Below the pieces are notes generated by a model, which had not been told where the DNA came from, ran no database searches, and worked only from the letters and a program-made list of their open reading frames with translations. From a virus, in the IMG/VR virus record IMGVR_UViG_3300043353_000072, positions 1 through 56,618 of that record: DNA of 56,618 nucleotides; one strand, 5' to 3'. The position numbers and the translations under genes are program-made. Of the stretch, positions 1-56,618 are shown in pieces. Each line of letters opens with the position of its first letter. The first letter of the stretch is position 1.

Positions 1-127
1 TGTAGCGCCGGTTCTGGCTTTCCGACGCGCGAATCCCCATGACGCTGAAAAGGTCTTTGCCCTCCGGCGTGGGATATACCTGCTTCGAAATGATGCGGGT
101 GATGTCCATGGCGTCGATATGCGTGGC
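1..127. repeat. Left copy of 127-bp terminal direct repeat
   Basis: These bases are identical to the last 127 bases of the window. An exact overlap of 127 bases is what an assembler leaves at the ends of a circular contig built with a 127-base k-mer, so this is probably a closure artefact rather than a physical phage terminus. It lies inside a coding gene, as an arbitrary cut would. Confidence 0.95.
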
Positions 128-6196: not shown

Positions 6197-7065
6197 CCCG
6201 TTTCCTCCGGTTGCAGCGCATGGAGTCTTGAGCGGGCATAGTCCCGCGCCGTCTGGTCCCGCTCCGGATCGTCCGCGATGGCCCGCCACATGGCGATCAG
6301 CGTTGCGTTCGGCACGGCGGCCGGCGCCGGCGGGGGTGGCGCGACGGGCACCACGGGCGCCACGGGCTCCGGCTTGAGGGCCGCGCGCATGACCGCCAGC
6401 CGCGGCCGAATGGCGGCGTGGAGGATCATGGCCTCCGGGTCGGCCAGCTTGGCCTCGTAGGCCCGGGCCAGTTCCACCGGCGAGTCCATGGCGTCCTCGA
6501 AAATGGGCAGGGCGTCGGGGCGATGGCGCGCCAGCAGGCTGACGTACGTCTGGATCAGCACATGCCGCATGGGGTGGCCCTGGAAGGTCAACGCCGTCAC
6601 CCGCACCGTCTCGTCGGTGATTTCCGCCGTCCGGTCCGCCCGGACCTCGGTGGCGATCTGGCGCGCCAGCCTGGGCGCGTATGTCTCGATGAGGCTGCGG
6701 GCCAGCTTCTCGCCGGTCCTGCCGCGGTGCTTCTCCCAGTAGCCGGCCCAGGCCTGCTCGGTGACATTCCCGGCCACCACGGTGGACGGCGCGGCCGACG
6801 CGGCGGGTGGCGCGTGCTCCCGCAGCCAGGCGGCGAGGGCGTCCCGCAAGCCGTAGTACGTCGGCCAGACGGTGGACTGGGCCGCCAGCGCCTCCGCCAC
6901 CGCCGGCGCCGTGGCGTCGATGAACAGCGTAACGGGGAACTCCGCCAGCAGGCCGGTCGCTTGCGCCATGATGGTGCCGTCCGAGGGAGGCTCGGCCAGT
7001 TCCATCAGCCGGGCCACCCGGCGCAGCCAGATTTCAATTCCCAGGCTGGCGTCGTCATCCGACAC
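6193..7065 (-). CDS. Unknown protein following the replication initiator
   Basis: A 290-residue mostly helical protein with a Pro/Val/Ala linker (about residues 232-252) and a C-terminal helix that repeats the style of the first helices. It overlaps the lambda-O-like gene by 11 bases. By position it could be a helicase-loading or primosome partner (the lambda O-P arrangement), but no Walker motifs or zinc site are visible, so that role is only a guess from context. Confidence 0.65.
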   Translation of the reverse strand: MSDDDASLGIEIWLRRVARLMELAEPPSDGTIMAQATGLLAEFPVTLFIDATAPAVAEALAAQSTVWPTYYGLRDALAAWLREHAPPAASAAPSTVVAGNVTEQAWAGYWEKHRGRTGEKLARSLIETYAPRLARQIATEVRADRTAEITDETVRVTALTFQGHPMRHVLIQTYVSLLARHRPDALPIFEDAMDSPVELARAYEAKLADPEAMILHAAIRPRLAVMRAALKPEPVAPVVPVAPPPPAPAAVPNATLIAMWRAIADDPERDQTARDYARSRLHALQPEETG

Positions 7066-8221
7066 GGCGCGCCTGGGAGAAGGTGTCCGACACCACGGCG
7101 CGAGCGATCAGCACCTCCCGGCCCATGGGCGAGCCCTCGCACAAGGTCAGCGGGTTGAGCGTCTGCTTGCCGTCCAGCCAGTTGCGATCTTTCAGCCACC
7201 AGTGCGCCGCCTTGGGACGTTTCGGGTCATGCTTCCAGCGGAACAGCCCCAACATTAGGTCCGCGTGGGTGGCGATCCCGCTGGCGATGACGCGGGCGTA
7301 CTCCATTTCGGCCTGGTGCCTGTCCTGGTGGACCGGGTAGGCGAGCCAGAAGCCTTCGAAACTTACCGGATATTTATATTCTTTCCGGTGTGGTGTGGCC
7401 GGCGGTGGGTCCGCGCCCGCACCCGCGGCATTCACACTCCCCACTAGAAGGGATTCTTCACTTCCAGAATCAGACTCACACACACTATCAAGAGTCCGCA
7501 CTGGGTTATTCAATGATTTCAATGGGTCGCGGGCAGTAATTATTTGGGAATTGCCCTCTATCTCCGGACAATTCGAATTAATTGCCGAGGAACTCGAATT
7601 CGGCGCCGGGGAATTACCCGAATCTGTCAATGATTCCAGTGGTGCGGCAATTCCCGTGCAATTATCGGCGGCGGGTAATTCCGGGGAATTAGCCCCTAAT
7701 TCAGATGAACTCCCAGTAATTACGGCGCCGTCGCGACCGCCCGCCATGGGCAGCAGCATGGACGTCTGGCCGAGCGGGCCGCGCCGGCTGCCAGGCTTCG
7801 GTCCGGGCTTGCGCCGGCCCTCCATCCTGCGGCCGTCCGGTGACTGCAGGACCACGGGCATGCCCAGGTCGTCGGACTCGGTGTAGGCGATCATGTCCCC
7901 CGGCATGGGGTGTTGACGCATCGCCCGGCGCGGCCGGTTCCATCGTCGGAAATGGCGGACCGCCCCATACTCCCGGCCGTCCCAGGCGGTGTATCGGCGC
8001 ACGAGGTCCAGCGTCTCCATCTCGTCCAGCATGGGCGTGACGTCGATGCCGTCCCCGGGCATGCACCGCAGGCCGATGGATCTGGGCTTCCACTCGAAAG
8101 CCCCGGCGTCGTCGGTGCAATGGACCTGGATCAGCACCAGCAGCAGGCGCGCGGTGACGGACAGGTAGGAAATCATGTCATCGGTGGTGAACCCCGGATG
8201 CACCATGCGCATGCGGCTCAT
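7055..8221 (-). CDS. Lambda-O-like replication initiator
   Basis: A 388-residue protein with three parts: an N-terminal winged-helix-type region (about 1-110, including FTTDDMISYLSVTARLLLVLIQV and TAWDGREYGAVRHFRRWNRP), a Ser/Asn-rich linker (about 150-260) and a C-terminal domain (EGFWLAYPVHQDRHQAEMEY, then HWWLKDRNW) typical of O-like and DnaD-like phage proteins. The linker DNA is AT-rich with 13 AATT tetranucleotides, a layout like lambda, whose origin lies inside O. ATG 8221 forms ATGA with the small ORF before it; an ATG seven codons upstream is less likely. Confidence 0.65.
   Translation of the reverse strand: MSRMRMVHPGFTTDDMISYLSVTARLLLVLIQVHCTDDAGAFEWKPRSIGLRCMPGDGIDVTPMLDEMETLDLVRRYTAWDGREYGAVRHFRRWNRPRRAMRQHPMPGDMIAYTESDDLGMPVVLQSPDGRRMEGRRKPGPKPGSRRGPLGQTSMLLPMAGGRDGAVITGSSSELGANSPELPAADNCTGIAAPLESLTDSGNSPAPNSSSSAINSNCPEIEGNSQIITARDPLKSLNNPVRTLDSVCESDSGSEESLLVGSVNAAGAGADPPPATPHRKEYKYPVSFEGFWLAYPVHQDRHQAEMEYARVIASGIATHADLMLGLFRWKHDPKRPKAAHWWLKDRNWLDGKQTLNPLTLCEGSPMGREVLIARAVVSDTFSQARRVG
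7538..7721. other. Candidate replication origin inside initiator gene
   Basis: In 184 bp there are 13 AATT tetranucleotides, many within GGGGAATTA or GCAATT contexts (for example at 7549, 7612, 7649, 7677, 7687), in a genome that is otherwise strongly GC-rich. The patch encodes the low-complexity linker of the O-like initiator. In lambda-like phages such an intragenic repeat-rich, easily melted patch is the origin bound by the protein it encodes. The repeats are not perfect iterons, so this is an inference. Confidence 0.5.
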
Positions 8222-8379
8222 GACGATGCTCCCCCGTGCCATGAAACTATGATGGATTGATGTCTTGCAATCATCCGGCGGCGTGCCGAATATGGAACGG
8301 GCAGCCCGGGCAGCGGGTTGTCTGAGTCGCCCCGGACGTTCCTGACGTCCCCGGTGCGGGTGAAAACCGGATGTCGCAT
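8218..8379 (-). CDS. Small ORF coupled to initiator (53 aa)
   Basis: ATG 8379 has AAAGGA eight bases upstream, and its TGA overlaps the start of the O-like gene (ATGA at 8218-8221), so it probably sets translation of the initiator. The peptide starts MRHPVFTRTGDVRNVRG and is basic. Its 3' part (8249-8259) contains the complement of CAATCCATCAT, a word repeated at three promoter islands elsewhere. Confidence 0.45.
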   Translation of the reverse strand: MRHPVFTRTGDVRNVRGDSDNPLPGLPVPYSARRRMIARHQSIIVSWHGGASS

Positions 8380-22921: not shown

Positions 22922-22960
22922 CAATCCATCATGACATGATGATACGTTGGCATCATGATG
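22922..22960. promoter_or_regulatory. Repeat cluster at the parA start
   Basis: Contains CAATCCATCAT (22922-22932), CATGACATGATG, and the 19-base word ATACGTTGGCATCATGATG (22942-22960) shared exactly with the P2 inverted repeat. It overlaps the parA start codon, so a protein bound here could autoregulate parA and also affect P4. It may double as a partition site. Confidence 0.65.
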
Positions 22961-23596
22961 CTAACCCTGGTCATGGCAAGTCAGAAAGGCGGCGTGGGCA
23001 AGACCATGCTCAGTTGCGCGCTCGCGGTGGAGGCGAGCCAGCGCGGGTTCTCGCGCGTGGCCCTGCTGGACCTGGACGAACAGAACGCCTCCACCCGCTG
23101 GGCCATGAAGCGCGAGGCCGCCGGCATGCCCGGCGTCACGATGGTGTCCGGCCGGCGGAGCGGCCACCTTCGCGCCACCGTCACGGGACTGGGCCGGGAC
23201 GGGTTCGACCTGCTGGTGATCGACACGCCGCCGGCGGTGTCCCGCGTGGCGGCCGACGCCATGGCGGTCGCGGACCTGGTGGTGGTCCCCGTCCAGCCGT
23301 CGCCCGATGACGTGGAAGCGGTGGGCGCGACCATCGAACTCGCGGAGCGGTCCGGCGCGCGGACGGTGTTCGTGCTGAACCGCGTCAAGCCCAGGGTCGC
23401 GCTGACCCGGGAGTCCATTATCGCCTTGTCCCAGGGCGGCCCGGTGTCCCCGGTTATGATCTGGGACCGGGTGGTGCACGCCGAGGCCCGCATAACCGGC
23501 CGGGTGGCCGGTGAGCTGCGCCCCGGTGGCAAGGCCGCCGAGGAAATGGCCGCTCTGTGGCTGTATTTGTCCGATCAGTTCAAAAGGAAACACTGA
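22955..23596 (+). CDS. parA: ParA-type partition ATPase
   Basis: A 213-residue short ParA without an N-terminal HTH. The deviant Walker A KGGVGKT lies at residues 11-17, with LLDLDEQNAST (A' region) and LLVIDTPP (Walker B). Small ParA proteins of this kind work with a ribbon-helix-helix centromere-binding partner, which follows immediately (TGATG overlap at 23594-23598). It moves and separates copies of a low-copy replicon, so it implies an episomal prophage. Repeats around the start codon may be operator and centromere. Confidence 0.9.
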   Translation: MMLTLVMASQKGGVGKTMLSCALAVEASQRGFSRVALLDLDEQNASTRWAMKREAAGMPGVTMVSGRRSGHLRATVTGLGRDGFDLLVIDTPPAVSRVAADAMAVADLVVVPVQPSPDDVEAVGATIELAERSGARTVFVLNRVKPRVALTRESIIALSQGGPVSPVMIWDRVVHAEARITGRVAGELRPGGKAAEEMAALWLYLSDQFKRKH

Positions 23597-23805
23597 TGCC
23601 CGAGGCCGCGCGTTTCAGCCCCGTGAATGATACCGCGACGGAACGCGCGGCCAGGGAACCGGATCGCGCGAAGCTGGTGGTGACCACCGTCCGCCTGCCG
23701 CGCGAACTCCACAAGTGGCTGGCCATCCACGCGGCGACCGAGAACACCTCCATCCAGCAGATCATGCTGGACCTGCTGGGCGAGTACCGGCGCGACCACT
23801 CATAG
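23596..23805 (+). CDS. Ribbon-helix-helix partition/operator-binding protein (69 aa)
   Basis: The disordered N-terminus (about 25 residues) is followed by LVVTTVRLPRELHKWLAIHA and TSIQQIMLDLLGEY, the strand and two helices of a CopG/ParG-like RHH fold. Gene order and overlap with parA make it the likely partition partner. RHH proteins bind short direct repeats, which are present upstream of P1, P3, P4 and parA. Whether it binds them is an inference. Confidence 0.8.
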   Translation: MPEAARFSPVNDTATERAAREPDRAKLVVTTVRLPRELHKWLAIHAATENTSIQQIMLDLLGEYRRDHS

Positions 23806-44144: not shown

Positions 44145-45518
44145 TCAGCCCTTGGTGCGGCCCTGTCCGCCGCCGGCGCCGCCGGTGTCGTGCCCGTGGC
44201 CAGTCCCGTGGCCGCCAGCCGCGCCCGAGGTGGTGGTAGCCGTGGCGGGACGGGCAGCACCGCCCGACACGGTGGAGGAACGGCCGGCCCTGCTAGGACC
44301 GGCGCCGGGCACGTTAACGGCGGAGCCGTCAGCGGCATTCATGACGGTGTTCTCGGCGGTCGGGTCCTCGGTCTGGCCGAACACGTCCTGCGGCTCCGCC
44401 TCGCCCGTGCCGTCATCGGCCGGCCCCACCACGGCGGTGCCGGCGGCGAACGTCAGCGTGGTGGCGGTGGCGGTCGCTTCGAACAGCACCCGGGGGATGG
44501 TGCACACGGGGATGACGTTCATCTGGGATTCCAACTGGACGCCCCGGTCGAAGTCCATGACCTCCTGCTTGGCGTAGCGCGGCAGGGCCAGTGTGTTCAC
44601 CGTCTCAATGTAGTCCGCCGGCGCGTAGGCCTCCACGAACAGCCCGGGGACGCCGGTGGGGAAGAAATAGGCCTTGTTCGGCGCCACGAACTGAAGCGCG
44701 CCCACGCCGCCGATGTACTCCACGAAGGTGACGCCCTGGTAAGTGACCTGGGCGCCGTAGTTGTTCTCCCGCAGGGATGCGGCGGCCACCGTGTTGAGGT
44801 AGGTGGCGCGGACCTCCGGCGAGCCGGTGACGGCGTCGAAGAACTGGGAACCGCAGATCGCCATGATGTTGCCGAACATCGGCAGCCCGCCCAGTTCCGC
44901 CGCCATCATGCGGCGCAGCGAGGTGCAAAGGCTGGCGATGACGCCGGCCCAGGACTGGCTCTGCACGAACCCGGTCGCCGGCGGCAGGATGGGCCAGGTG
45001 AGGGTGGCCTGCTTGGTCACGCCGAACAGCGCGAACAGGTCCACGGTTTGCAGCGGCGCGCCGGTGTCCCGGTCCACCCGGGTGATGACCACGCCCTTGC
45101 AGCCGCCCAGGCGGAGCCATTCCAGGGTCACGTCCAGCTTGTCATTCATCCCCGACAGCCGTTGGTCCACCTTGTCGCTCCACGCCTCAAGCTGGTTGTC
45201 GGTACCGAAGGCCCGCACGCCCAGCAGTTCGTCCGCCAGGATGCTCGAATCGAGCGGGAAATGCGGCACGACAACGGGCACCAGGCTGCGCCGCTCGGGC
45301 AGGTCCACCGTCGCCGGCGCGCCCCTGGGCAGGGCCGGGACAAGCGCCAGCGTGTTGTTTCGCTGTTCGAACAGCGCCACCGTCTGGGACAGCGGCGATG
45401 GCGTGTACAGGTTCAACCGGCCGATCAGCCCGGGCTTGTAGGGCATCCGGTTGATGGCGCCGGTCAACGAGTAGACGTTGAACATCGCCTGCGTTTGGAA
45501 CGCGGACAGCATGGGCAT
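44145..45518 (-). CDS. Major capsid protein, lambda gpE-like
   Basis: A 457-residue protein. The first about 345 residues follow the gpE family (TVALFEQRNNTLALVPALPR, then VDQRLSGMNDKLDVTLEWLR and FVEYIGGVGALQFVAPNKAY). The last about 110 residues are an extra Gly/Thr/Ala/Pro tail with no gpE counterpart, possibly a surface-exposed extension. ATG 45518 follows AAAGGAG. Confidence 0.9.
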   Translation of the reverse strand: MPMLSAFQTQAMFNVYSLTGAINRMPYKPGLIGRLNLYTPSPLSQTVALFEQRNNTLALVPALPRGAPATVDLPERRSLVPVVVPHFPLDSSILADELLGVRAFGTDNQLEAWSDKVDQRLSGMNDKLDVTLEWLRLGGCKGVVITRVDRDTGAPLQTVDLFALFGVTKQATLTWPILPPATGFVQSQSWAGVIASLCTSLRRMMAAELGGLPMFGNIMAICGSQFFDAVTGSPEVRATYLNTVAAASLRENNYGAQVTYQGVTFVEYIGGVGALQFVAPNKAYFFPTGVPGLFVEAYAPADYIETVNTLALPRYAKQEVMDFDRGVQLESQMNVIPVCTIPRVLFEATATATTLTFAAGTAVVGPADDGTGEAEPQDVFGQTEDPTAENTVMNAADGSAVNVPGAGPSRAGRSSTVSGGAARPATATTTSGAAGGHGTGHGHDTGGAGGGQGRTKG

Positions 45519-45533
45519 GACGAAAAACTCCTT

Positions 45534-45650
45534 TCACGCCGGAGCGTGCGGGGGTGGACGATCCGTTTGGGACGGCGGTTGCGACGGCGCGTTGGGAGGC
45601 GTGGGCGGAGGCGTGACGGGGAGCCCGGGCACGTCCTCCGCCGCTGTCAT
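45534..45650 (-). CDS. Proline-rich peptide between gpD and gpE (38 aa)
   Basis: ATG 45650 overlaps the gpD stop (ATGA). It begins MTAAEDVPGLPVTPPPTPPN and stays Pro-rich. Too short for usual calling, but coupled translation supports it. Possibly a linker or maturation factor. Function unknown. Confidence 0.45.
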   Translation of the reverse strand: MTAAEDVPGLPVTPPPTPPNAPSQPPSQTDRPPPHAPA

Positions 45651-46111
45651 CACGGAGGCGTGATCGACGTATTGCCGAGCGGTCCGTAGGGCGTGTTGGC
45701 AAGCGCCGGGTCGGTGGTGCGCGGGCCGCCGGCGTAGGTGCCGCCCGGGCCGTCCAGCACCGCCGGCCGGACCGCGATGCCCATGGTGAGCAACTGCGTC
45801 CTGACGGTGGCGGCCACCATGGTCTGGTAGATCAGCATCGACTCGTTGACCTCCGCGTCGCGCACGATGACCGAGGACTCCTGGGCCAGCGTGGTGGTGT
45901 CCACCGCGTAGAGCAGGATAGCGGTTATAAGCGCCTCGTCGGTGGGCACCCGGCAGGGCACGTACGCCGTCGGCGGCCCCTTGAGCGGCGTCCCGGGCGC
46001 CAGCACGCCATTGCCGGCGGCGATGGTGCCCCAGCCGCGGCTTCGGCTCCCGTTGGCCTCGCTGATGACGAAGCCCCCCATCACGGGGATTTGTTGCGGT
46101 GTCATCGCCAT
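45650..46111 (-). CDS. Head decoration protein, lambda gpD-like
   Basis: A 153-residue protein. The segment GNGVLAPGTPLKGPPTAYVP leads into EALITAILLYAVDTTTLAQE and SSVIVRDAEVNESMLIY, the pattern of HDPD/gpD proteins, which trimerise on the capsid. Longer than gpD (110) because of a C-terminal Gly/Pro-rich piece. The gene order C-D-E matches lambda. Confidence 0.85.
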   Translation of the reverse strand: MAMTPQQIPVMGGFVISEANGSRSRGWGTIAAGNGVLAPGTPLKGPPTAYVPCRVPTDEALITAILLYAVDTTTLAQESSVIVRDAEVNESMLIYQTMVAATVRTQLLTMGIAVRPAVLDGPGGTYAGGPRTTDPALANTPYGPLGNTSITPP

Positions 46112-46112
46112 G

Positions 46113-46610
46113 TCAGTGGCTCCCTGCTGGTGGTTGGTAGACCGTGCGGTGCTTCATCACCTCGCGGGAGAACCCGGGTGTGATGCCTGACGCCGCCGCG
46201 GTGGCCTCGGCGTTGGTGTCCACGGGCAGCGTCACGTTGGCGTCCGCCGCCCGGGTCTTGCGCGACTGCAGTTCGGTCCTGATCTGGTCCAGCGTCAGGC
46301 TCGACGCGATCATTTCCTTGGCGGTGGTCAGGCTGGCGCCGGCGAGCTCGCACGCCGCGAGGATCTCGGTGTCCATGCGCTGGCGGGCGCCGGTGACGGC
46401 CGCGACGTCCAGGTGGACCACGTTGCCCCCGGGGAGCGGGACGGCGGCGGCGTGGGCAGCCTGGGCGGGCTGCGCCGGCGGGTCCGGCTGCGGCTGCGGC
46501 GCGGGTGGCGCCGGCGGGTTGGGGTTCGCCGGCGGGTCCGGCTGCGGCTGCGGGTTGGGGTTCGGGTCCGACTGCAGGCGGACGGGTGCCGCCGGTGTGT
46601 GCTCGCTCAT
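46113..46610 (-). CDS. Possible nested scaffold (internal start in protease gene)
   Basis: The ATG at 46610 (MSEHTPAAPVRLQ) has GGGAG at eight bases and lies at the border between protease and scaffold domains, as the internal Nu3 start does in lambda gpC. The product would be 165 residues: a Pro/Asn linker and a helical C-terminus. Expression is not proven. Confidence 0.45.
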   Translation of the reverse strand: MSEHTPAAPVRLQSDPNPNPQPQPDPPANPNPPAPPAPQPQPDPPAQPAQAAHAAAVPLPGGNVVHLDVAAVTGARQRMDTEILAACELAGASLTTAKEMIASSLTLDQIRTELQSRKTRAADANVTLPVDTNAEATAAASGITPGFSREVMKHRTVYQPPAGSH

Positions 46611-47516
46611 GCGTGGTGCTCCCATGCTGGAAGGATTGACGGCCTCGGCCAGCGCGCCGCGGGCGTCCGCCGGCGTGCCCAGTTCATCCGCGAGGCCGGC
46701 GGCCAGCGCGTTCGGTCCGTAGAAACAGCCGGCCTCGGTGTCGCGGACGGCCGCCGCCGTGATGCCGCGGTGGCCGGCGATGCCCTCGCACATCATCCCG
46801 TACAGCCGGTCCACCTCGGCCTGCGCCAGCCCGTGCGCTTCTTCCGAAAGCGGCTGGTGCGGGTTGAGGTCGACCTTGCGGGCGCCGGCGTGGATGTAGG
46901 TGAAACGCAGGCCTTCGGCGGCGTCCCGTTCGCTGCGGTCCGCGTGCAGCGCCATGACGCCGATGGAGCCCGCGCCGCCGGTATTGGTGACCCAAACCCG
47001 GGAAGCGGCGGAGGCGATGACGTAGGCGGCGGAAAAGGCGTCGTCGTTGGCGATGGCCCAGATTGTCTTGACGGCGCCGGCGGCGCGTATCTCGCGCGAC
47101 AGGTCAAGCACCGCGCCGGCCTCGCCCCCAGGGGAGTCCACGTCCAGCAGCACCGCCCGCACCTGCGGATCGTTCAGCGCGAAGGTGAGGCTGGCCTTGA
47201 TGCGGTCATAGCTTTGCAGCGGGGTGCTGTCCGGCGTCATTTGGCCGGGCTTGCGCACGAGCACGCCTTGCACGGGAAGGATGGCGACGCCGCCGCGGGC
47301 GACCTGATAGCCTGGGTTGCGTGGCGGGGGAGCCCCGCCCTCCGTCTCCATGCGCGCGGTGGCGCGTGCGAGCCGGTCCGGGTTGTGGCTTCCCCGTCGC
47401 GCTATGATGCCCGGCAGGCCTGGGAGCATGGCTTCCAGCTTCGCCGGCGCGATCATCAGCGGCGTGTTGAACACCCGCGCCATGAGGTGCGGTAGCAGCC
47501 TGGGCATCTCGTTCAT
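46113..47516 (-). CDS. Head maturation protease, S49 / lambda gpC-like, with scaffold
   Basis: A 467-residue protein. The N-terminal serine peptidase (S49, SppA/GpC) shows VLLDVDSPGGEAGAVLDLSR, IANDDAFSAAYVIASAASRV (nucleophile Ser in FSAAY) and TNTGGAGSIGVM, with ARKVDLNPH supplying the Lys. After about residue 300, Asn/Pro/Gln repeats lead to a helical C-terminal domain that looks like a scaffold, as in gpC-Nu3. ATG 47516 overlaps the portal stop. Confidence 0.9.
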   Translation of the reverse strand: MNEMPRLLPHLMARVFNTPLMIAPAKLEAMLPGLPGIIARRGSHNPDRLARATARMETEGGAPPPRNPGYQVARGGVAILPVQGVLVRKPGQMTPDSTPLQSYDRIKASLTFALNDPQVRAVLLDVDSPGGEAGAVLDLSREIRAAGAVKTIWAIANDDAFSAAYVIASAASRVWVTNTGGAGSIGVMALHADRSERDAAEGLRFTYIHAGARKVDLNPHQPLSEEAHGLAQAEVDRLYGMMCEGIAGHRGITAAAVRDTEAGCFYGPNALAAGLADELGTPADARGALAEAVNPSSMGAPRMSEHTPAAPVRLQSDPNPNPQPQPDPPANPNPPAPPAPQPQPDPPAQPAQAAHAAAVPLPGGNVVHLDVAAVTGARQRMDTEILAACELAGASLTTAKEMIASSLTLDQIRTELQSRKTRAADANVTLPVDTNAEATAAASGITPGFSREVMKHRTVYQPPAGSH

Positions 47517-49183
47517 GCGGCCTGCCCCTGATTTTGGTCCGGGTTGTTCGCGTCCGGCGCCGCGTTCGGGTCGGCGTTCGGGTCCGCGTTGGGATCGACG
47601 GTTTCGGCCGGTGCGCCGGCCACCTTGGTGTTCGGCGTGAAGGACAGGCCCAGGCGTTTCTCCCGGGCACGGTCGGCGGCGATGCGCGCGTCCGTTTCCT
47701 CCGGGTCATAGCCCTCCGCCTCGATGACGTCGCTCCGTGCCTTGAACCCGTTCTGCACCGCCAGCGCCTCGGCCTGCCGGTCCTTGAGCGGATCGACCCA
47801 GGGCATGCGCGGAGTGATCGCCTTGAAGGCGCGATAGGTGGCCTTGTCCGCCACATACTCCGCCGCGGTAATGGGCAGGACGCCGGCGAGCACGGCCGCG
47901 TCCATCCAGGCGTTCCAGACGCCGCGAAGCAACTGGTAGACCAGGACCGCATGCTGGAAGGCCTCCACCTCGGTGCGGAAGGAGAGGATGCCGGCGCGTG
48001 ACGAGGCGTAGCTGGCCTTGGTCTGGTCCCCGGTCATTTCGTTGTAGGGGACGCCCAGGGCGGCGGCGATTTGCAGCAGGGTGCGGAACTGGAACGGTTC
48101 ATAATTGCCGCCCACGTCCGCCGGGTCCGAAAACTTGATGTCGGTGCCGTCATCCAGTTCCAGGAAGGCGCCCGGGCCGTAGTACGGCAGACCGCCGTAG
48201 CTGGGCACCACGGTGCCGCCGTCGACGGGCTCCCCCTCGGTGGTCTGCCCGGGCAGCGGCGTGAGGTTCTCCGGCGGTGGCCGCGTGACGAAGGCCGCGA
48301 AACGGGCCGCCTGCTTCTTTCGTTCCAGTTCCGCGTCGTCGTAAATGTCCATCTGGAACAGCTTGACGATGGCGGCGGCCATGCCGGTGAGGCCTCGGAT
48401 TTGCCCGCCCTCCACCGGATCGAAAACGTGGATGATTTCGGCCGCCGGGATGCGGGACAGCCGGCCGGCGTTCAGCGCCTGCGTCCAGGTCAGCGTCGCG
48501 TCCGCCGTGTTGGTCGAGTAGAACCAGTACGCCACCCGCTTGCCGATGGGGCTGAATTCGATGCCCAGGCGGATGGTGTTGCCGTTGGGCAGAACCTCTT
48601 GCTTCCACAACGGCAGTTGCTCCGTGGGGAGCATCTGCAACTGGATCGGCACGGAGAGCCCGTCCGAGGCCAGCCTGGGCCGCAGGCGGATGAACACCTC
48701 GCCGGCCAGGAAGGCCTCCCGGGAGGCGCGCCGCAACTGGCCGTAGAAATCCGTGATCCCCTCGGCGTCGGACTCGTCGGTCCAGGTCAGCCACGCCTTG
48801 GACACGGCGGCCTTGAGCGCCGGGTCCTCGATCAGCGGCGAGGGTTTGATGCCGGCGCCGACGGTGGCGGCGGACCACGCCCGCATGCCCTGCTTCGCAT
48901 AGCCGTTGTTCCGCACCAGCCAGCGCGCCCGCGCCACGGTGGTCAGCCCGGCGTTGCGGATCAGGTTGTTAACGTGATCCTGGGCGGTGTTGATCGAGGC
49001 CATGCGCCCCCGCCTGGACCCGCCCTCAAGTCCCGGCTGGGCGTTGGCCCATATGGCCGTGGGACCGGCGAGCGCGCCGGCGGCCGGGTCGCCTCCGAAA
49101 CCGGACATTCGCGGTTCCAGGCGTGGCGCGCTGGCGACCCGGCCAGGCTGGCGTCCGGGGAGGAAATTTGACCAGAACGCCAA
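47513..49183 (-). CDS. Portal protein, lambda gpB-like
   Basis: About 556 residues. INTAQDHVNNLIRNAGLTTV, then FYGQLRRASREAFLAGEVFI, HVFDPVEGGQIRGLTGMAAA and QIAAALGVPYNEMTGDQTKA are strong lambda-portal-family motifs. The C-terminal tail has PNADPNADPNA repeats. The start is uncertain: TTG 49183 has AAGGGA upstream and comes straight after the gpW stop; ATG 49108 is the alternative. Confidence 0.9.
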   Translation of the reverse strand: MAFWSNFLPGRQPGRVASAPRLEPRMSGFGGDPAAGALAGPTAIWANAQPGLEGGSRRGRMASINTAQDHVNNLIRNAGLTTVARARWLVRNNGYAKQGMRAWSAATVGAGIKPSPLIEDPALKAAVSKAWLTWTDESDAEGITDFYGQLRRASREAFLAGEVFIRLRPRLASDGLSVPIQLQMLPTEQLPLWKQEVLPNGNTIRLGIEFSPIGKRVAYWFYSTNTADATLTWTQALNAGRLSRIPAAEIIHVFDPVEGGQIRGLTGMAAAIVKLFQMDIYDDAELERKKQAARFAAFVTRPPPENLTPLPGQTTEGEPVDGGTVVPSYGGLPYYGPGAFLELDDGTDIKFSDPADVGGNYEPFQFRTLLQIAAALGVPYNEMTGDQTKASYASSRAGILSFRTEVEAFQHAVLVYQLLRGVWNAWMDAAVLAGVLPITAAEYVADKATYRAFKAITPRMPWVDPLKDRQAEALAVQNGFKARSDVIEAEGYDPEETDARIAADRAREKRLGLSFTPNTKVAGAPAETVDPNADPNADPNAAPDANNPDQNQGQAA

Positions 49184-49185
49184 CG

Positions 49186-49488
49186 TCAGAGTCCCTTGAC
49201 CTGCGGGACGGTGTAGAGGCGCGCGGGTCCGCGTGGCCACGCGCCGGTGGTGCAGTAGGCCACCTCGGCCTCAAGCCCCTTGATGGCCCGGACGAGGTCC
49301 GTCTGGTCGCGGTAAGTGACGGAGCGGCCCCGGTCGCCCACGGCCTGCACGCCGCCATAGAGGCGCGCCCGCAGGTCCGCGATCTGTTTCAGTTTGTCGG
49401 CCATGCCCTCCGGCGAACAGTCGAGATAGCCGGTCCCGGTGGATACCCAACCGGGCGGCAGGACGGGCAACTGAGCGGGTCCGGACAT
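49186..49488 (-). CDS. Head-tail joining protein, gpW-like
   Basis: A 100-residue protein with the gpW core KLKQIADLRARLYGGVQAVG and DQTDLVRAIKGLEAEVAY. In lambda it lies between terminase A and portal B, as here. ATG 49488 overlaps the stop of the gpZ-like gene. gpW stabilises the packaged head before tail joining. Confidence 0.8.
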   Translation of the reverse strand: MSGPAQLPVLPPGWVSTGTGYLDCSPEGMADKLKQIADLRARLYGGVQAVGDRGRSVTYRDQTDLVRAIKGLEAEVAYCTTGAWPRGPARLYTVPQVKGL

Positions 49489-50066
49489 CAGTGGTGCACC
49501 GTCTTCGTCTTGGTGTGCTGGGAGCGCCGCACGGCCGACTGCAGTTGGCGCGCGAGGTTGCGGGGGAGCTGCTCGCGCAGCCGCGCCTCGATGCCCGTCC
49601 GCACGTCCGGCGTGAGGAAGGTCCCGTAAACCGTTGGCCCCCAGAGTTGCTGGATCGGCAGGCGGCCGGCGCCGGGCAGCCGGCGGTAGATGCCCCGGTG
49701 TCCGCTTTTCATGGTGGCGGCGAAGGCGGATTTGAGCACCTGGGCCTTGCCCCACGCCTTGGTCTGGATGCCCTCCCGCGTCTGGGTGAACGGGAAGGCG
49801 GCCAGCGGGACCGGCCGGCGCGAACAGCGGATGCGCGTCACGTAGGTGCCCACGGCCACGAAATCAGTGTGGATGAACTCCCGCACCACGCGGGACGGGA
49901 CCGACATGTGTTTGGCGATCATGCCGGTGGCCCGCACCTTGCCGTTGTTCGCCGTCTGCCGCAGCGCCACCGCTATCGCCTGGTCCGCCTTCGGCGGCTT
50001 GAGCGCGGCGATGGTGCCCAGGAAGTCCTCCGTCCTGAACTCCACGGTAATCATGGGAGCGGCCAT
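49488..50066 (-). CDS. Minor tail protein, gpZ-like
   Basis: A 192-residue protein with RQTANNGKVRATGMIAKHMS, KSGHRGIYRRLPGAGRLPIQ and QQLWGPTVYGTFL, the pattern of prophage minor tail Z proteins. Here it is upstream of gpW and portal rather than beside the tail genes. Basic C-terminus. Confidence 0.8.
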   Translation of the reverse strand: MAAPMITVEFRTEDFLGTIAALKPPKADQAIAVALRQTANNGKVRATGMIAKHMSVPSRVVREFIHTDFVAVGTYVTRIRCSRRPVPLAAFPFTQTREGIQTKAWGKAQVLKSAFAATMKSGHRGIYRRLPGAGRLPIQQLWGPTVYGTFLTPDVRTGIEARLREQLPRNLARQLQSAVRRSQHTKTKTVHH

Positions 50067-50076
50067 GGCGAGACGC

Positions 50077-50736
50077 TCAGCCGCGCCGGCGTTTCCAACC
50101 GAGCCCCAGCAGGCCCGCGCCGAGGACCGCCATCGAGGTGGGTTCCGGGATATTGGCGGAGGCGTCCCCGGCCACGGAGGCGTTGAAATCCTGGATGGTC
50201 AGCCCCGAGGTGGTGCCCAGGGCGGCCACCACGTCCACCGCCGGCGCCACGTTGGTCAGCGCGAAGGACAGGGAGCGCGGCAGGTCCAGGGCCGTGATCA
50301 CGTCACTGTTGAACGTGGTGGACGGCGCGAACACGGCGATGGCGGTGGCGCCCTGGGCGGTCAGCGCCCCGTCGTTGAACGTGCCGGACAGGAAATTGAT
50401 GCCGGAGTTGTCCGCCAGCCGGTTGATGCTGAACGAGCCCGTGAAGTGCTCCACGATCAGGTTGGGCGGACCGACGATGAGGGTGGCGCCCGCCGCGGTG
50501 GAGGTCGCCGTCACGTCCAGGAAGGCCGCGATGGGCGTGGGGTTGATGGCGTCGATCTGGGTAATGGTGACGGGGATGTCCAGGCCGCCCCAGGTGGTGC
50601 CGCCGGCGTTGGCGGTGCCGCTGATGGTGTTGCCGCCGATGGCCTGGCCGAAGGCCACGATCAGGGTGGCGGAAGCGGGAATGACGGAGCCGAGCAAGGC
50701 AAGCGCGGCCAGCCCGGCGAGCAGGTGTTTACGCAT
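50077..50736 (-). CDS. Exported PEP-CTERM protein
   Basis: A 219-residue protein. The N-terminal signal peptide (RKHLLAGLAALALLGSVIPA then SA) ends near residue 23. The mature part is Thr/Ala/Gly-rich and beta-like. The C-terminus is IPEPTSMAVLGAGLLGLGW followed by KRRRG: the PEP motif, a hydrophobic segment and a basic tail recognised by exosortase EpsH. ATG 50736 has AAAGGAAATCCG before it. It lies between the terminase and gpZ-like genes. Family knowledge: PEP-CTERM proteins are exported and linked to exopolysaccharide in biofilm-forming bacteria. A phage moron of this type is unusual and requires a host with exosortase. Confidence 0.85.
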   Translation of the reverse strand: MRKHLLAGLAALALLGSVIPASATLIVAFGQAIGGNTISGTANAGGTTWGGLDIPVTITQIDAINPTPIAAFLDVTATSTAAGATLIVGPPNLIVEHFTGSFSINRLADNSGINFLSGTFNDGALTAQGATAIAVFAPSTTFNSDVITALDLPRSLSFALTNVAPAVDVVAALGTTSGLTIQDFNASVAGDASANIPEPTSMAVLGAGLLGLGWKRRRG

Positions 50737-50771
50737 CGGATTTCCTTTCGGTTGAGAAAAGCGTGGGGCGG

Positions 50772-52790
50772 TTAGAGCCGTCCCAGGTTCATGAAGCGCC
50801 GGCGCAGCACCGGCCGCCGCACGGGCTGGGCCAGTACGCCCGCCTGCGGGGTGGAAGTCGTGGCCGCCGGGTTGACCGGAGGCTCCGCCGGCATCGGCGG
50901 CGGTGGTGGTTCAAGGCCCAGTTGCGTCTCAAGGTCCCGCCAGTGCACGTCGGTCCAGCGGTCCGCCCCGGCCATCCAGACGGCGGCCCGCGCGTAGACC
51001 CGCATGTCCAGGGCCTCGTTACGTGGCCGTAGCTGACGCCACTCGGTTTTGACCGCCCAGCCGCGCCGGCCGCGCACGATGACGCGCTGTTCGGCCACCA
51101 GTTGCTTGATCCACTCGTCATTGAGCGTTAGCGGCAGGTGGACGTAGCCGGCCGGGTAGCCATAGGTCGCCAGATCCGCATCGGTCGGCCGGTCCAGTTG
51201 CAGCAGCTTGTATGTCTCGCTTTTGAAAAACGAGACGCTCACGGTCCAAAGGCTCACGCCCCGCTTGATCCTCCGGCCGTTCTGCGCGACCTCCACGTAG
51301 ACCGGGCCCGACACGGGCACGGAGCGGTCGTATTGCGGGACGCCCTTGACCGCCAGCACCGTGAGCCGGGACTGCTTGCGCACCCAGGCATAGACCTGCT
51401 GGGTGAAGGCGCCGGTGTCGATCGCGAGCCGTTGCAGCACCAGACGCTTGCCCGAGGCGTGCCTCCATGTGGTCGACAACAGGTTGGTCAGGTGTTCCCA
51501 GGTGCCAGCCTCGCCCGGGTCCCCGTAAACGACCATGTGCTCCACCAGCCAGGACTCCAGCCCCCGGCCCCAGGCCCAGACGTCCAGTTCGATCCGGTCC
51601 GCCTGCACGTCCGCGCCGGCGGTCAGGAACAGCCCCCGCATCGGCACGCCACGGAACGGCCAGTCTTCCCGGCGCTCGTAGAGGCGTTGCCAGTCCGGGA
51701 CGATTTCCGCTTCTTCCTCGTACTCCTCGCCCAGCACCGTGTTGATGAAACTCTTGCGTTTCTCAACGTCGTTGATGGAGCCCTCATAGAACGCGACGAC
51801 CTCCGCCCATGACATCCAGCCGATGGGCGAATACAGCGCCGACAGGTGGTAGCCGCGCACCGAGCGGTCATTCGTTTCGGCCGTGGCGCGCCACTCCCCG
51901 CCGGCCAGCATGGCGGTCTTGTGGTGCTCCCGCATGGCGCCGTCGCAGCCCTCGCACTGATACGTGACGGTGCGCGGCTGCCCGGCCTCCCACTTCATGC
52001 GGTTGAAGTTGAGCACCTGCTTGAGACCACAATGCGGACACGGAACGAAGTAGAACCGCTTGTCCGTGGCATCGAATTCACGGGTTATGCGGGACGTGCC
52101 TTTTAGTTTCGGCGTCGATGCGAGCAGTATCTTGGACCGCACGCCGAAGGTGCGCGTGCGCGCCTCGGCCAGCGCCACCGGGTCGCCCTCGTCCTCGATG
52201 TCGCCCGGGTAGGCGTCAACCTCATCGAGCATCAGGTATCGCACTGGCATGGACCGCAGGCCGACAGCGGAGTTGGCGCCGGTGATGATCAGCACGCCGC
52301 CCACGAATTCCTTCATGAGCATGGTGTTCGTTGTGTCCCGCGAACGGTTGCGCGATACCTTGCCGCGCAACTGCGGGGAGTCGTCGATCAACGGTTGCAG
52401 CCGTTGCGTGGAAAAGCGTTTCGCGGTGTCAACGGTGGGCTGCACCATCATGACCGGCCCGGGGACCTGATCCATTATGTAGCCAATCCAGCAAACGCCC
52501 GCTTCGGAGGCGCCAATCTGCGCGCCTTTTTTGAACACCACGCGCCGCACGGGTGACAGCGCGCTCAAACTGTCCATTATTTCCTTGATGTATGGCGCGC
52601 GTGAGGTTCGATATCGACCGGCCTCCGCCGCGCCACGGGATGACAGGATGCGGTAGCGGTCCGCCCATTCCGAGACGGTCAGTTCCGGGTCCGGCGCCAG
52701 CCCCTCGTCCCAGGCCCGGGCCAGGATGTCGTCCGGGTGGAACGGTGGCGGGGTGAAAGGATACGCGGACGTGACGGATATGTCAGTCAC
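50772..52790 (-). CDS. Terminase large subunit, lambda gpA-like
   Basis: About 672 residues. The ATPase half has VVFKKGAQIGASEAGVCWIG (Walker A type) and RYLMLDEVDAYPG (Walker B). A cysteine pair, CPHCGLKQ and CEGCDG, forms a zinc site. The nuclease half begins GADVQADRIELDVWAWGRGL with the first catalytic Asp. It cuts concatemers and packages DNA. Start GTG 52790 (VTDISVTSAYPF) lies in a palindrome shared with the divergent small-terminase-like gene; ATG 52826 is the alternative. Confidence 0.95.
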   Translation of the reverse strand: MTDISVTSAYPFTPPPFHPDDILARAWDEGLAPDPELTVSEWADRYRILSSRGAAEAGRYRTSRAPYIKEIMDSLSALSPVRRVVFKKGAQIGASEAGVCWIGYIMDQVPGPVMMVQPTVDTAKRFSTQRLQPLIDDSPQLRGKVSRNRSRDTTNTMLMKEFVGGVLIITGANSAVGLRSMPVRYLMLDEVDAYPGDIEDEGDPVALAEARTRTFGVRSKILLASTPKLKGTSRITREFDATDKRFYFVPCPHCGLKQVLNFNRMKWEAGQPRTVTYQCEGCDGAMREHHKTAMLAGGEWRATAETNDRSVRGYHLSALYSPIGWMSWAEVVAFYEGSINDVEKRKSFINTVLGEEYEEEAEIVPDWQRLYERREDWPFRGVPMRGLFLTAGADVQADRIELDVWAWGRGLESWLVEHMVVYGDPGEAGTWEHLTNLLSTTWRHASGKRLVLQRLAIDTGAFTQQVYAWVRKQSRLTVLAVKGVPQYDRSVPVSGPVYVEVAQNGRRIKRGVSLWTVSVSFFKSETYKLLQLDRPTDADLATYGYPAGYVHLPLTLNDEWIKQLVAEQRVIVRGRRGWAVKTEWRQLRPRNEALDMRVYARAAVWMAGADRWTDVHWRDLETQLGLEPPPPPMPAEPPVNPAATTSTPQAGVLAQPVRRPVLRRRFMNLGRL
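52771..52790. promoter_or_regulatory. Palindrome holding two divergent start codons
   Basis: GTGACGGATATGTCAGTCAC reads GTGACTGACATATCCGTCAC on the other strand. Each strand starts a gene with GTG-Thr-Asp: VTDMSVT rightward and VTDISVT leftward. It may be an operator or a cos-proximal binding site for the small terminase. Confidence 0.55.
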
Positions 52791-53259
52791 GGCATACGCC
52801 CGGGCGCGGGACGTGCCGCACTCCACGGTGTTCGAAGCCGTCCGCGCCGGGCTGATCCAGGCCCGGGACGGCCAGGTGAACGTGGAGGAAACCGACGCCG
52901 GCTGGTACGCCGATCATCTTGCCCGGAAGGACAGGGTGGTCAGCCTGGAAGAATTCCGGGTGCGCCAGCGCGGCGCCTCGGTGGTGGACAGCATGGCCCG
53001 GATAGCCGGGCTCAAGCGGCAGGTGGAACAGATACGCAAGACCACGGCCCTCCGCGGCGCCATAGAGCCGGCCGCGACGCGCCGTGCCAGCAGGCTCCGC
53101 GCCGCCCTCGGCGTCCTGCCCACGCTGCACGCCCTGGAAGCCCTGGAAGGCCTGCGGACCCAGCCCGACACCGCCCAGGCGGTGCTGGAACGGTTCGCCG
53201 CCCGGTTGGCGGCGGACCTGGGCGACCTGGACGTGCCCTACCGGGCGCCGGACGGATAA
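52771..53259 (+). CDS. Small-terminase-like HTH protein
   Basis: About 162 residues. MSVTAYARARDVPHSTVFEA, then VRAGLIQARDGQVNVEETDA is a Nu1-like HTH used to bind packaging sites. The helices after it and the C-terminal AARLAADLGDLDVPYRAPD suit oligomerisation. GTG 52771 has AAAGGA upstream; ATG 52780 also fits. It diverges from the large subunit, unlike the usual Nu1-A order. Confidence 0.7.
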   Translation: MTDMSVTAYARARDVPHSTVFEAVRAGLIQARDGQVNVEETDAGWYADHLARKDRVVSLEEFRVRQRGASVVDSMARIAGLKRQVEQIRKTTALRGAIEPAATRRASRLRAALGVLPTLHALEALEGLRTQPDTAQAVLERFAARLAADLGDLDVPYRAPDG

Positions 53260-54330: not shown

Positions 54331-54879
54331 TCACGGCAGGAACGTCTCGGACTGCCGCCCCACTGGCCGGCGCGGGTTTATCTCGGACCTGATGGGCCGG
54401 TGCTGCACCAGGGAGGGGACGTGTAGCCAGTAACGTTCGCGCCTGTCCCCCAAAAAGTCCGCCACCATGAGGTCGAAGCCCGTGGGGTGCTCCACCGCGC
54501 GACGCCAGCCTGGGCGGTAGGCGTGGATGGCGGGCGCGTGGCCGGCCGGCAGGTAGAAGCATTGCGTCATGATGAACGAGCGGCCCGGCATTTCCCTGGA
54601 ACCGAGCCGCGCGTCCGACCGCTTGATGCTGAAAAACTGGATGACCTGCCCTGGGTTTTTGTCGATTTCCGCTTCCACCTTGGCGGTGAAATCCCGCGTC
54701 AGGATGATGTCGTCCTCAAGGTGCACCGTGGGATCGTTCTGGCTGGCCGTCATGGCGTAAAGGAACGTGGTCATGGCGTCGCGCGAGAAGTCCCGCATGA
54801 TTTCCAGGCCGGGAATCCCCGCCGTGAGATCCGGCAGGAAATGCTCACGCTCTCGCACCACGCGCACCAGATACCGCAT
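54331..54879 (-). CDS. Glycosyltransferase-like protein
   Basis: A 182-residue protein. DPTVHLEDDIILTRDFTAKV (EDD at residues 55-57) resembles the DxD metal/nucleotide-sugar site of GT-A enzymes, with the strand before it. GFDLMVADFLGDRRERYW is a later motif like those of GT25-type enzymes, and VQHRPIRSEINPRRPVGRQS closes it. Short for a GT. ATG 54879 overlaps the ParB-like stop. Adjacent to ParB and PP-loop genes, so it may add sugar to DNA, RNA or protein. Confidence 0.65.
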   Translation of the reverse strand: MRYLVRVVREREHFLPDLTAGIPGLEIMRDFSRDAMTTFLYAMTASQNDPTVHLEDDIILTRDFTAKVEAEIDKNPGQVIQFFSIKRSDARLGSREMPGRSFIMTQCFYLPAGHAPAIHAYRPGWRRAVEHPTGFDLMVADFLGDRRERYWLHVPSLVQHRPIRSEINPRRPVGRQSETFLP

Positions 54880-55826
54880 CAGGCCGCCTCCGCCGTCTCC
54901 CGCTGGCAGATGGACAGCAGCCGTTCCGCCGGCCGATCCCCCAGCACCCGCTTGACGATTTCCGCTTCGCTGTCCGCGAACATGAGATTGATCCGGTAGA
55001 ACACGCGGTCCTTCCGTACCAGCTCACGTTCCTCGTCAGTGCGCGCGGCGGCCAGCTTTTGCTCGTGCTCCCGTTGCGCCTCCAAGGCTTGCATCGACAT
55101 GGCGGACGTTATGACGATGCTCCCGTTGTTCACGTCCGAGGCCACCACGGAGGCGCGGCCGTCCTGGTCGCTCCGCGCCTCCGGATTCCAGGCGGCGGTG
55201 TACTCGTCGCCGGCGAGCGCGTCCGGTGCCGGAATGTCCGCCAGCAGCTTCTCAATCTCGGCCTCACTGAGCATGAGACTGTCGGCGGCCCAGTCCAGGG
55301 CTCCGAGTTTCTCAAGGTCCCGCAGCACCTCGGCCGACAACTGGATGTCTTCCGATCCGCGCGCCCGGTTATGCCGCAGCGTGGCGATGCGCATTTGTTC
55401 CGCCGTCATGTCCACCAGCACCACGGGCAACGTCTCCATGCCCAGGGCCGCCGCGGCGCGCCAACGGTGCTCGCCATCGACAATGCGGTGTCCGTCCCGC
55501 TGCACGATGACCGGCTGGGTGAAACCGTCCTCCCGCATGGAGCGCAGCAGCAACTCGAAATCCTTCTCGCTCATGCGGTTGGGATTGTACTCGTTGGGGT
55601 GGATGTCGCTGACCGGCAGGTATTCGATATTGAGCCGTTCCAGCATGATGTTGGTCTTGATGGGCGGCGCGCGTTTGCGTCCCGCCATTCGTTGCGGTCG
55701 CGGTGGATCTGCTGATGGTGGAGCGTGCGCGCCATTGGTTTTCGCGGCGGCCTTGCGCGCCGGTGCCTTGGCTGGTGGTGGTGGTGGGCTCGCCGCTTTT
55801 TTGGCGGCCGTTTGCTTGCGAGGCAT
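54879..55826 (-). CDS. ParB-domain protein, IbrB-like (second ParB-like)
   Basis: A 315-residue protein. The first about 55 residues are an Ala/Lys/Pro basic tail. Residues about 65-200 are a ParB/Srx domain: LNIEYLPVSDIHPNEYNPNR, then HRIVDGEHRWRAAAALGMET (GEHR box) and TLRHNRARGSEDIQLSAEVL. The C-terminus is helical (LEAQREHEQKLAAARTDEER). IbrB-like proteins lie next to PAPS-reductase-like IbrA proteins, as here (gap 9 bases). It may act in gene control or DNA modification. Confidence 0.85.
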   Translation of the reverse strand: MPRKQTAAKKAASPPPPPAKAPARKAAAKTNGAHAPPSADPPRPQRMAGRKRAPPIKTNIMLERLNIEYLPVSDIHPNEYNPNRMSEKDFELLLRSMREDGFTQPVIVQRDGHRIVDGEHRWRAAAALGMETLPVVLVDMTAEQMRIATLRHNRARGSEDIQLSAEVLRDLEKLGALDWAADSLMLSEAEIEKLLADIPAPDALAGDEYTAAWNPEARSDQDGRASVVASDVNNGSIVITSAMSMQALEAQREHEQKLAAARTDEERELVRKDRVFYRINLMFADSEAEIVKRVLGDRPAERLLSICQRETAEAA

Positions 55827-55835
55827 ATCGTTTTC

Positions 55836-56618
55836 CTATGTCCAGGTGGGCGCGAAGCCGCCCCATGTGCCCGATCCGGCGCGGAAGAAATCGGGCTCCA
55901 TCGCCCGGTTGCCACCAATGCCGAAGGTTTTGAGTGCGAAAGGGTCGCCATTGTAGAGGGCCAGCGTGAGGGATCGCCAACAGCCCAGGTTGCCGCTGCA
56001 CATATAGCAAGGCCGGCTCTCCGGCAGGTCCGTTGTCGCGTGGTGCGCATGGGTGTGGACAATGGCCTCGCTGACCTTGGCGGCACGCTCCGCCAGCCAC
56101 GCCGCCGGCGCCTCCGCGATGCACTCGCGCATGAACGTGTCGCGCCACGTTTCGCCCAGCCGACGATGCGGCAGGACGCTTTTCATGCCGAACTGGGAAA
56201 TGGTTTTGGCGCCGGGCAGGCGTGTCTCCACGCGGTCGAACCATCGCGGCCATGCCTTGCGCGCCATGGTCAACAGATACACCGAGGCGGAGTTGAGCGT
56301 GGGCGGTGCTATGCGCATGAACTTCATGGGCACGTCGAAACGAACCATGGCGTTGTAGGCCGTGTTGTAATCCCACTTCTGGTCCCGCACCGCGCGCCAG
56401 ACGTCCGCGTCCTGCCAGTCGTAGATGGGCCGGCAGTTGCGCGTCCCGATGACGTTTCGTTTCGTCATGTGACCGCCGGCGGAGAACACGCTGTAGCGCC
56501 GGTTCTGGCTTTCCGACGCGCGAATCCCCATGACGCTGAAAAGGTCTTTGCCCTCCGGCGTGGGATATACCTGCTTCGAAATGATGCGGGTGATGTCCAT
56601 GGCGTCGATATGCGTGGC
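55836..56618 (-). CDS. PAPS-reductase-like PP-loop protein, C-terminal part
   Basis: Continues the gene that starts at 511 across the circle junction. The part seen here includes KDLFSVMGIRASESQNRRYS, NCRPIYDWQDADVWRAV, typical of PAPS-reductase-like C-terminal regions (a W-D-VW motif), and SRPCYMCSGNLGCWRSLTLA, a CxxC-x5-C group as in DUF3440/IbrA proteins that might hold a metal or Fe-S cluster. Total length about 388 residues. The next gene begins 9 bases on. Confidence 0.85.
   Translation of the reverse strand, partial: ATHIDAMDITRIISKQVYPTPEGKDLFSVMGIRASESQNRRYSVFSAGGHMTKRNVIGTRNCRPIYDWQDADVWRAVRDQKWDYNTAYNAMVRFDVPMKFMRIAPPTLNSASVYLLTMARKAWPRWFDRVETRLPGAKTISQFGMKSVLPHRRLGETWRDTFMRECIAEAPAAWLAERAAKVSEAIVHTHAHHATTDLPESRPCYMCSGNLGCWRSLTLALYNGDPFALKTFGIGGNRAMEPDFFRAGSGTWGGFAPTWT
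56492..56618. repeat. Right copy of 127-bp terminal direct repeat
   Basis: Identical to bases 1-127. Removing one copy gives a 56,491-bp circle in which the PAPS-reductase-like reading frame is continuous. Confidence 0.95.

Follow-up and report, generated by a model that had tools for sequence, protein, structure and literature searches.

The known phage morons of the cell envelope use lipoprotein or membrane-protein routes. A phage protein family linked to exosortase would add a further sorting route to those exploited by phages. Such a family would also hint at the hosts of uncultured phages, in which an exosortase is to be expected, and give a handle on how phages cope with matrix-coated bacteria of soil and biofilms, whose PEP-CTERM proteins are mostly without known function. 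According to the accessible part of the description by Haft et al. (PMC1569441), PEP-CTERM proteins combine a signal peptide, a PEP motif, a hydrophobic helix and a basic end with a body that is rich in Thr, Ser and Asn and poor in Lys, Arg and Cys. One of them, the floc protein PepA (NF033554), is able to change how exopolysaccharide is held, as stated in an excerpt of the respective study (PMC9850573). Llp of phage T5, which acts in superinfection exclusion, is likewise a small protein that a phage directs to the envelope of its host, and serves here as an analogy only: in the sections at hand of the source (PMC9586334), Llp is a lipoprotein with a known receptor target and such proteins are expressed early, in which it differs from the protein described below. 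Proteins of the TIGR03118 type with an exosortase-interaction domain occur in viral contigs from Yellowstone, where 13 were counted as horizontal transfers (PMC11003980, partial text). TIGR03118 was not among the 13 NCBIfam families touched by our protein (P0001). A survey-level search of the literature on PEP-CTERM proteins or exosortases in connection with phages, prophages or viral contigs returned no report of the family presented here. As far as this survey goes, exosortase-tagged proteins in viral contigs have been mentioned in passing before, and a body family found so far only in phages is new.

We analyzed a window of 56,618 bp, which comprises the whole of IMG/VR record IMGVR_UViG_3300043353_000072. 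The PEP-CTERM gene lies on the minus strand, which had not been specified in the sequence-only reading of this DNA. The relevant features are as follows.

1..127, direct terminal repeat, copy 1 (exact 127-bp repeat)
44145..45518, minus strand, major capsid protein E (PF03864)
45650..46111, minus strand, head decoration protein D (PF02924)
46113..47516, minus strand, S49 head maturation protease (PF01343, phrog_53)
47513..49240, minus strand, portal protein (PF05136)
49186..49410, minus strand, head-tail adaptor Ad1, gpW-like (phrog_2545)
49488..50066, minus strand, gpZ-like/Neck1 protein, downstream neighbor (PF06763, phrog_27)
50077..50736, minus strand, PEP-CTERM protein gene, 219 aa (ORF and translation, PF07589, TIGR02595)
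50080..50151, minus strand, PEP-CTERM sorting tail, residues 196-219, with PEP motif, hydrophobic helix and basic end (profile matches, model)
50152..50667, minus strand, beta-rich body, residues 24-195, family-specific domain (homology, alignment, AlphaFold2, composition)
50668..50736, minus strand, signal peptide, residues 1-23, with predicted cut after ASA (sequence; A-x-A kept in the family)
50741..50748, minus strand, ribosome-binding site AAAGGAAA (sequence)
50772..52826, minus strand, terminase large subunit of the gpA type, upstream neighbor (phrog_15, profile matches)
56492..56618, direct terminal repeat, copy 2, identical to copy 1 (exact 127-bp repeat)

On the minus strand, the order of genes is terminase, PEP-CTERM gene, gpZ-like, gpW-like, portal, S49 protease, decoration protein D and capsid E. 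The PEP-CTERM gene is tightly embedded in this series, with 35 bp between the TAA stop codon of the terminase gene and its own ATG and 10 bp between its stop codon and the ATG of the gpZ-like gene, and AAAGGAAA is located just 5′ of its start codon. The placement between terminase and gpZ-like genes and the separate ribosome site thus agree with what had been read from the sequence. In this position in a phage virion operon, the gene differs from cellular PEP-CTERM genes, which form single-gene operons after a large gap.

The 219-aa protein itself resembles cellular PEP-CTERM proteins (PF07589/TIGR02595; exosortase EpsH, PF09721) in its signal, PEP motif, helix, basic end and body bias. It scored above the cut-offs of both PF07589 (30.0 bits, cut-off 20.7) and TIGR02595 (21.4 bits, cut-off 16), and the PEP-CTERM match in a search of the whole record reached 34.2 bits, which bears out the proposed sorting tail. 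The predicted signal peptide, of the Sec type, is supported by a hydrophobic N-terminal stretch followed by an A-x-A site (judged by eye), of which Ala23 is conserved in all 21 and Ala21 in 19 of the 21 aligned homologs. The Thr/Ala-rich, beta-like character attributed to the body was also found: residues 24-195 contain 13.4% Thr, 16.3% Ala, 7.6% Ser and 7.0% Asn, only 1.2% Lys plus Arg and no Cys, compared to 6.1% Thr, 11.0% Lys plus Arg and 0.9% Cys in all called proteins of the window. This Thr-rich bias, poor in Cys and Lys plus Arg, is the one described for PEP-CTERM proteins in the accessible text of Haft et al. (PMC1569441). The 219-aa ORF almost certainly encodes a real PEP-CTERM protein carried by a phage.

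An AlphaFold2 model of the protein, built with 21 family rows, showed a body made up entirely of beta structure, with residues 200-218 forming a helix at the C-terminus (mean pLDDT 82, pTM 0.74). Foldseek with this model gave no match at E ≤ 0.001, and the best VIA fold match (Z 8.5, rmsd 4.3, 125 aligned residues, 11% identity) was closely followed by unrelated folds and had a Z score close to the range common for unmatched models. The beta-barrel families compared with the body, namely dirigent proteins, PloI4 and small outer-membrane barrels, matched weakly. No catalytic or receptor-binding feature was recognized in the body, the fold comparison gave no function, and the PHROGs contained no match for the protein. 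Its NCBIfam match to PepA, at 29.6 bits, fell well short of the 80-bit cut-off; the tail is shared, and there was no indication of kinship between the two bodies.

Bases 1-127 of the window are identical to bases 56492-56618. The record stands among records that are classed by their ends, where 'linear' denotes those without detected end repeats. Closure of the genome gives a length of about 56.5 kb, with the PEP-CTERM gene inside; the genome is complete, either circular or terminally redundant. As the exact 127-bp terminal repeat marks a closed phage genome, the gene is not part of a host flank; a host flank or a chimera was ruled out by this repeat together with the wide occurrence of the body among viral contigs described below.

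Elsewhere in the window, a PAPS-reductase-like gene spans the genome join (2-511 and 55836-56600). In addition, the window encodes ParA, followed by a small ORF, a protein resembling replication initiators and two others similar to ParB (22955-23805, 7055-8242, 1391-2446, 54879-55826). These proteins suggest that the phage may be able to maintain itself in plasmid form.

The insertion site was compared with that of relatives. The gap between terminase and gpZ-like genes measures 706 bp in the window. Among 15 relatives in which the site could be seen, it measures 18-36 bp in four (L003, L281, L282, L306) and is filled by different, mixed content in the others. The terminase-gpZ gap is therefore an insertion hot spot in near relatives. 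Neither the body nor a PEP-type tail was present in any of 80 portal relatives, in 64 of which the terminase was visible, and this absence indicates that the gene is dispensable. Within the lineage of the window, it seems to have been acquired once and sporadically at the hot spot. Portal-bearing regions from bacterial genomes contained no insert and no gpZ; in L280 the terminase was out of view and the site not visible. The earlier designation of the gene as a moron is in line with its sporadic occurrence and with the fact that it separates two genes which are direct neighbors in some relatives. Cargo of the hot spot in L286, L287, L289, L296, L283 and L284 includes, for example, an exonuclease-like protein (named by eye) and a protein of 345-351 aa.

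Searches with the single sequence of the window protein yielded no confirmed relative in IMG/VR and none in 50,697 phage records or in plasmids. Likewise, two further family members (L132, L174) and representatives of other phage-borne PEP-CTERM families (L090, L139, L125) had no match in the phage records. The family was detected only via the tail pattern and alignment searches. A DNA pattern for the PEP tail occurred in 115 IMG/VR stretches, and the control order E-P-P in none. In the fetched stretches, 105 of 120 pattern matches lay at the end of an ORF of more than 60 aa, with no more than 45 aa separating motif and stop, and most of these 105 ORFs had a signal-like N-terminus. With signal and tail removed, the window body was homologous to 21 of them (alignment A1; E 6e-36 to 2e-5), all of which also matched PF07589. 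A search of IMG/VR with the alignment returned 149 stretches, confirmed by tblastn with the whole protein including its tail; the best 80 of the 149 were examined, and the 69 ranked below them may match in the tail alone. An HMM of the body alone found 94 genes in the fetched loci, including that of the window, 79 of them with a strict [VIL]PEP motif near the end and 15 with a variant EP tail. The retention of the tail in all 94 body-bearing genes and the result of the E-P-P control (0 versus 115) show that the tail is not due to chance.

Some contigs occurred under two locus ids; after entries with identical ends had been merged, 67 distinct contexts remained of the 94 genes. A codon comparison of 69 distinct sequences gave a median dN/dS of 0.21 over 100 non-independent pairs with 70-98.5% identity, a value indicating that the body family is under purifying selection. 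The gene of the window, called unusual as a phage moron in the sequence-only reading, is not an isolated case: it belongs to a family of wide distribution, which has so far been seen only in viral contigs. IMG/VR holds many other phage-borne PEP-CTERM families as well.

In 398 Pseudomonadota genomes, the body alignment (A2) had no match, and in the positive control it matched 14 of 14 viral records; this result is confined to the Pseudomonadota among the phyla rich in PEP-CTERM proteins. The full alignment matched 44 of 385 Alphaproteobacteria; among the matches listed, most covered only the tail end and some reached the body region. Twelve loci fetched from the Alphaproteobacteria with tail matches gave no match to the body HMM even at E 10. 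As far as tested, the sequence searches thus suggest a body family that is phage-specific so far. The phage, which has no exosortase of its own, and its protein, whose body was absent from 398 bacterial genomes, differ in this from cellular PEP-CTERM systems.

The family members are frequently found close to virion genes. Terminase, portal, capsid or a virion-structural cluster was located within five called genes in 31 of the 67 distinct contexts, and a scan of 20 more neighbors added five contexts with head or packaging genes and three with tail genes. In total, genes for packaging, head or tail stood no more than five genes away in at least 39 of 67 contexts, a lower bound as part of the neighbors was scanned and many contigs are short. 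The directly adjacent genes shared the strand of the PEP-CTERM gene in 112 of 126 cases. The adjoining terminases belong to PHROGs 15 (window), 38 (L177), 2 (L208), 9 (L206) and 979 (L233), from which we conclude that the PEP-CTERM gene has passed from one phage type to another. Genes that often accompany it encode a Pro/Gly-repeat protein (26 loci), a small single-helix protein (24 loci), a beta-helix-like protein named by eye (12 loci) and a second PEP-CTERM gene (eight loci).

No exosortase (PF09721) was detected in the 43 virus records with the family, that is the window and 42 others; processing would thus need a host enzyme, and the dependence on host exosortase assumed in the sequence-only reading is consistent with this result. 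In the Alphaproteobacteria sample, PF09721 was present in 31 of 44 genomes with tail matches versus one of six without. Alphaproteobacterial genomes with a related portal contained an exosortase in only two of 18 cases. The terminase of the window shared 56% identity with that of Rhodobacter phages and 40-43% with terminases in five alphaproteobacterial or Magnetococcales genome contigs, which loosely indicates Alphaproteobacteria as the host group. Because of its sorting signals, as characterized in the accessible part of Haft et al. (PMC1569441), the protein is expected to be exported and processed; in an exosortase-positive host, processing by exosortase is very probable.

The best explanation overall, to which we give about even chances, is that the gene is a moron encoding an exosortase substrate. 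Against it speak the exosortase in only two of 18 genomes with a related portal, the weak fold matches of the body and the absence of the gene from the 80 portal relatives. The protein would be translated together with the late virion genes and exported by Sec, and signal peptidase would remove its N-terminus. Anchored in the inner membrane by its C-terminal helix, the protein would then present the PEP motif on the periplasmic side, where the host exosortase would cut and hand the beta domain on to the cell exterior, either the outer surface or the matrix of exopolysaccharide. As to the job of the protein, we tentatively favor a late alteration or masking of the attachment layer, which would keep rivals and the phage's own progeny from adsorbing to a cell already doomed, or to what is left of it. 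The late position of the gene favors such control of adsorption to dying cells and debris, comparable to the purpose given for T5 Llp in the available excerpt (PMC9586334). Extended to the whole family, it is conceivable, with somewhat greater reserve, that these phage-only exosortase substrates are head-module cargo passed between phage types of exosortase-bearing hosts and hijack surface sorting late for adsorption or release.

If the protein were instead made in lysogens, it might alter aggregation or exopolysaccharide retention in the manner of PepA, a protein that retains exopolysaccharide in bound form and thereby promotes the formation of flocs (PMC9850573, partial text). The ParA, ParB-like and replication-initiation-like proteins of the window would suit such a lysogenic conversion of the matrix by a phage-plasmid, but the mere 35 bp upstream and the late virion genes around it make expression in lysogens doubtful, and with a PepA model score of 29.6 against 80 bits we regard this alternative as rather unlikely. 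A late-gene position, along with a tail common to several unrelated phage-borne PEP-CTERM families, could also be expected of a decoy, an abundant late substrate that floods the host exosortase, starves the host's own PEP-CTERM proteins, loosens the matrix and lets progeny escape. A mere decoy would not need a conserved body under purifying selection, and this role appears improbable. For a protein carried in or on the particle speaks the location of the gene between terminase and head-tail genes; the signal peptide and sorting tail would lead the protein away from the cytoplasm, where virions assemble, and the gene is missing from 80 related loci, so that a virion or assembly part is very unlikely. 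A host gene carried along as a passenger, or a chimeric contig, with no role in the phage is likewise very unlikely: bacteria commonly have PEP-CTERM proteins and this one is sporadic in its phage lineage, but the genome is closed, the body occurs in 94 viral-contig genes and in none of 398 bacterial genomes, and it shows the mark of purifying selection.

With respect to the partner genes, the Pro/Gly-repeat protein has no PHROG match and is often encoded directly upstream (L239 7270-8007, L119 5704-6315, L248 5326-5937). At the same site in L002, a similar-looking Pro/Gly protein is encoded, which gave a blastp E value of 5e-11 to one member of this cargo (c0), compared to 8e-4 for the best of 20 shuffles. 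An HMM search for c0 did not recover the L002 protein, and a relationship between the two is suggestive only. The small single-helix protein (L221 439-675 and 23 other loci) has about 50-78 aa and likewise no PHROG match. At least two PEP-CTERM matches were present in seven of the 43 virus records. A second large phage-borne PEP-CTERM family was found at 17 loci (L066, L069, L072, L080, L082, L090 and others), with a body unrelated to that of the window at the threshold used. In an unrelated phage, two different PEP-CTERM proteins are encoded (L063 1910-2476 and 4122-4832, also in L062), and in L063 the pair is located near genes that by eye resemble lysis and replication genes.
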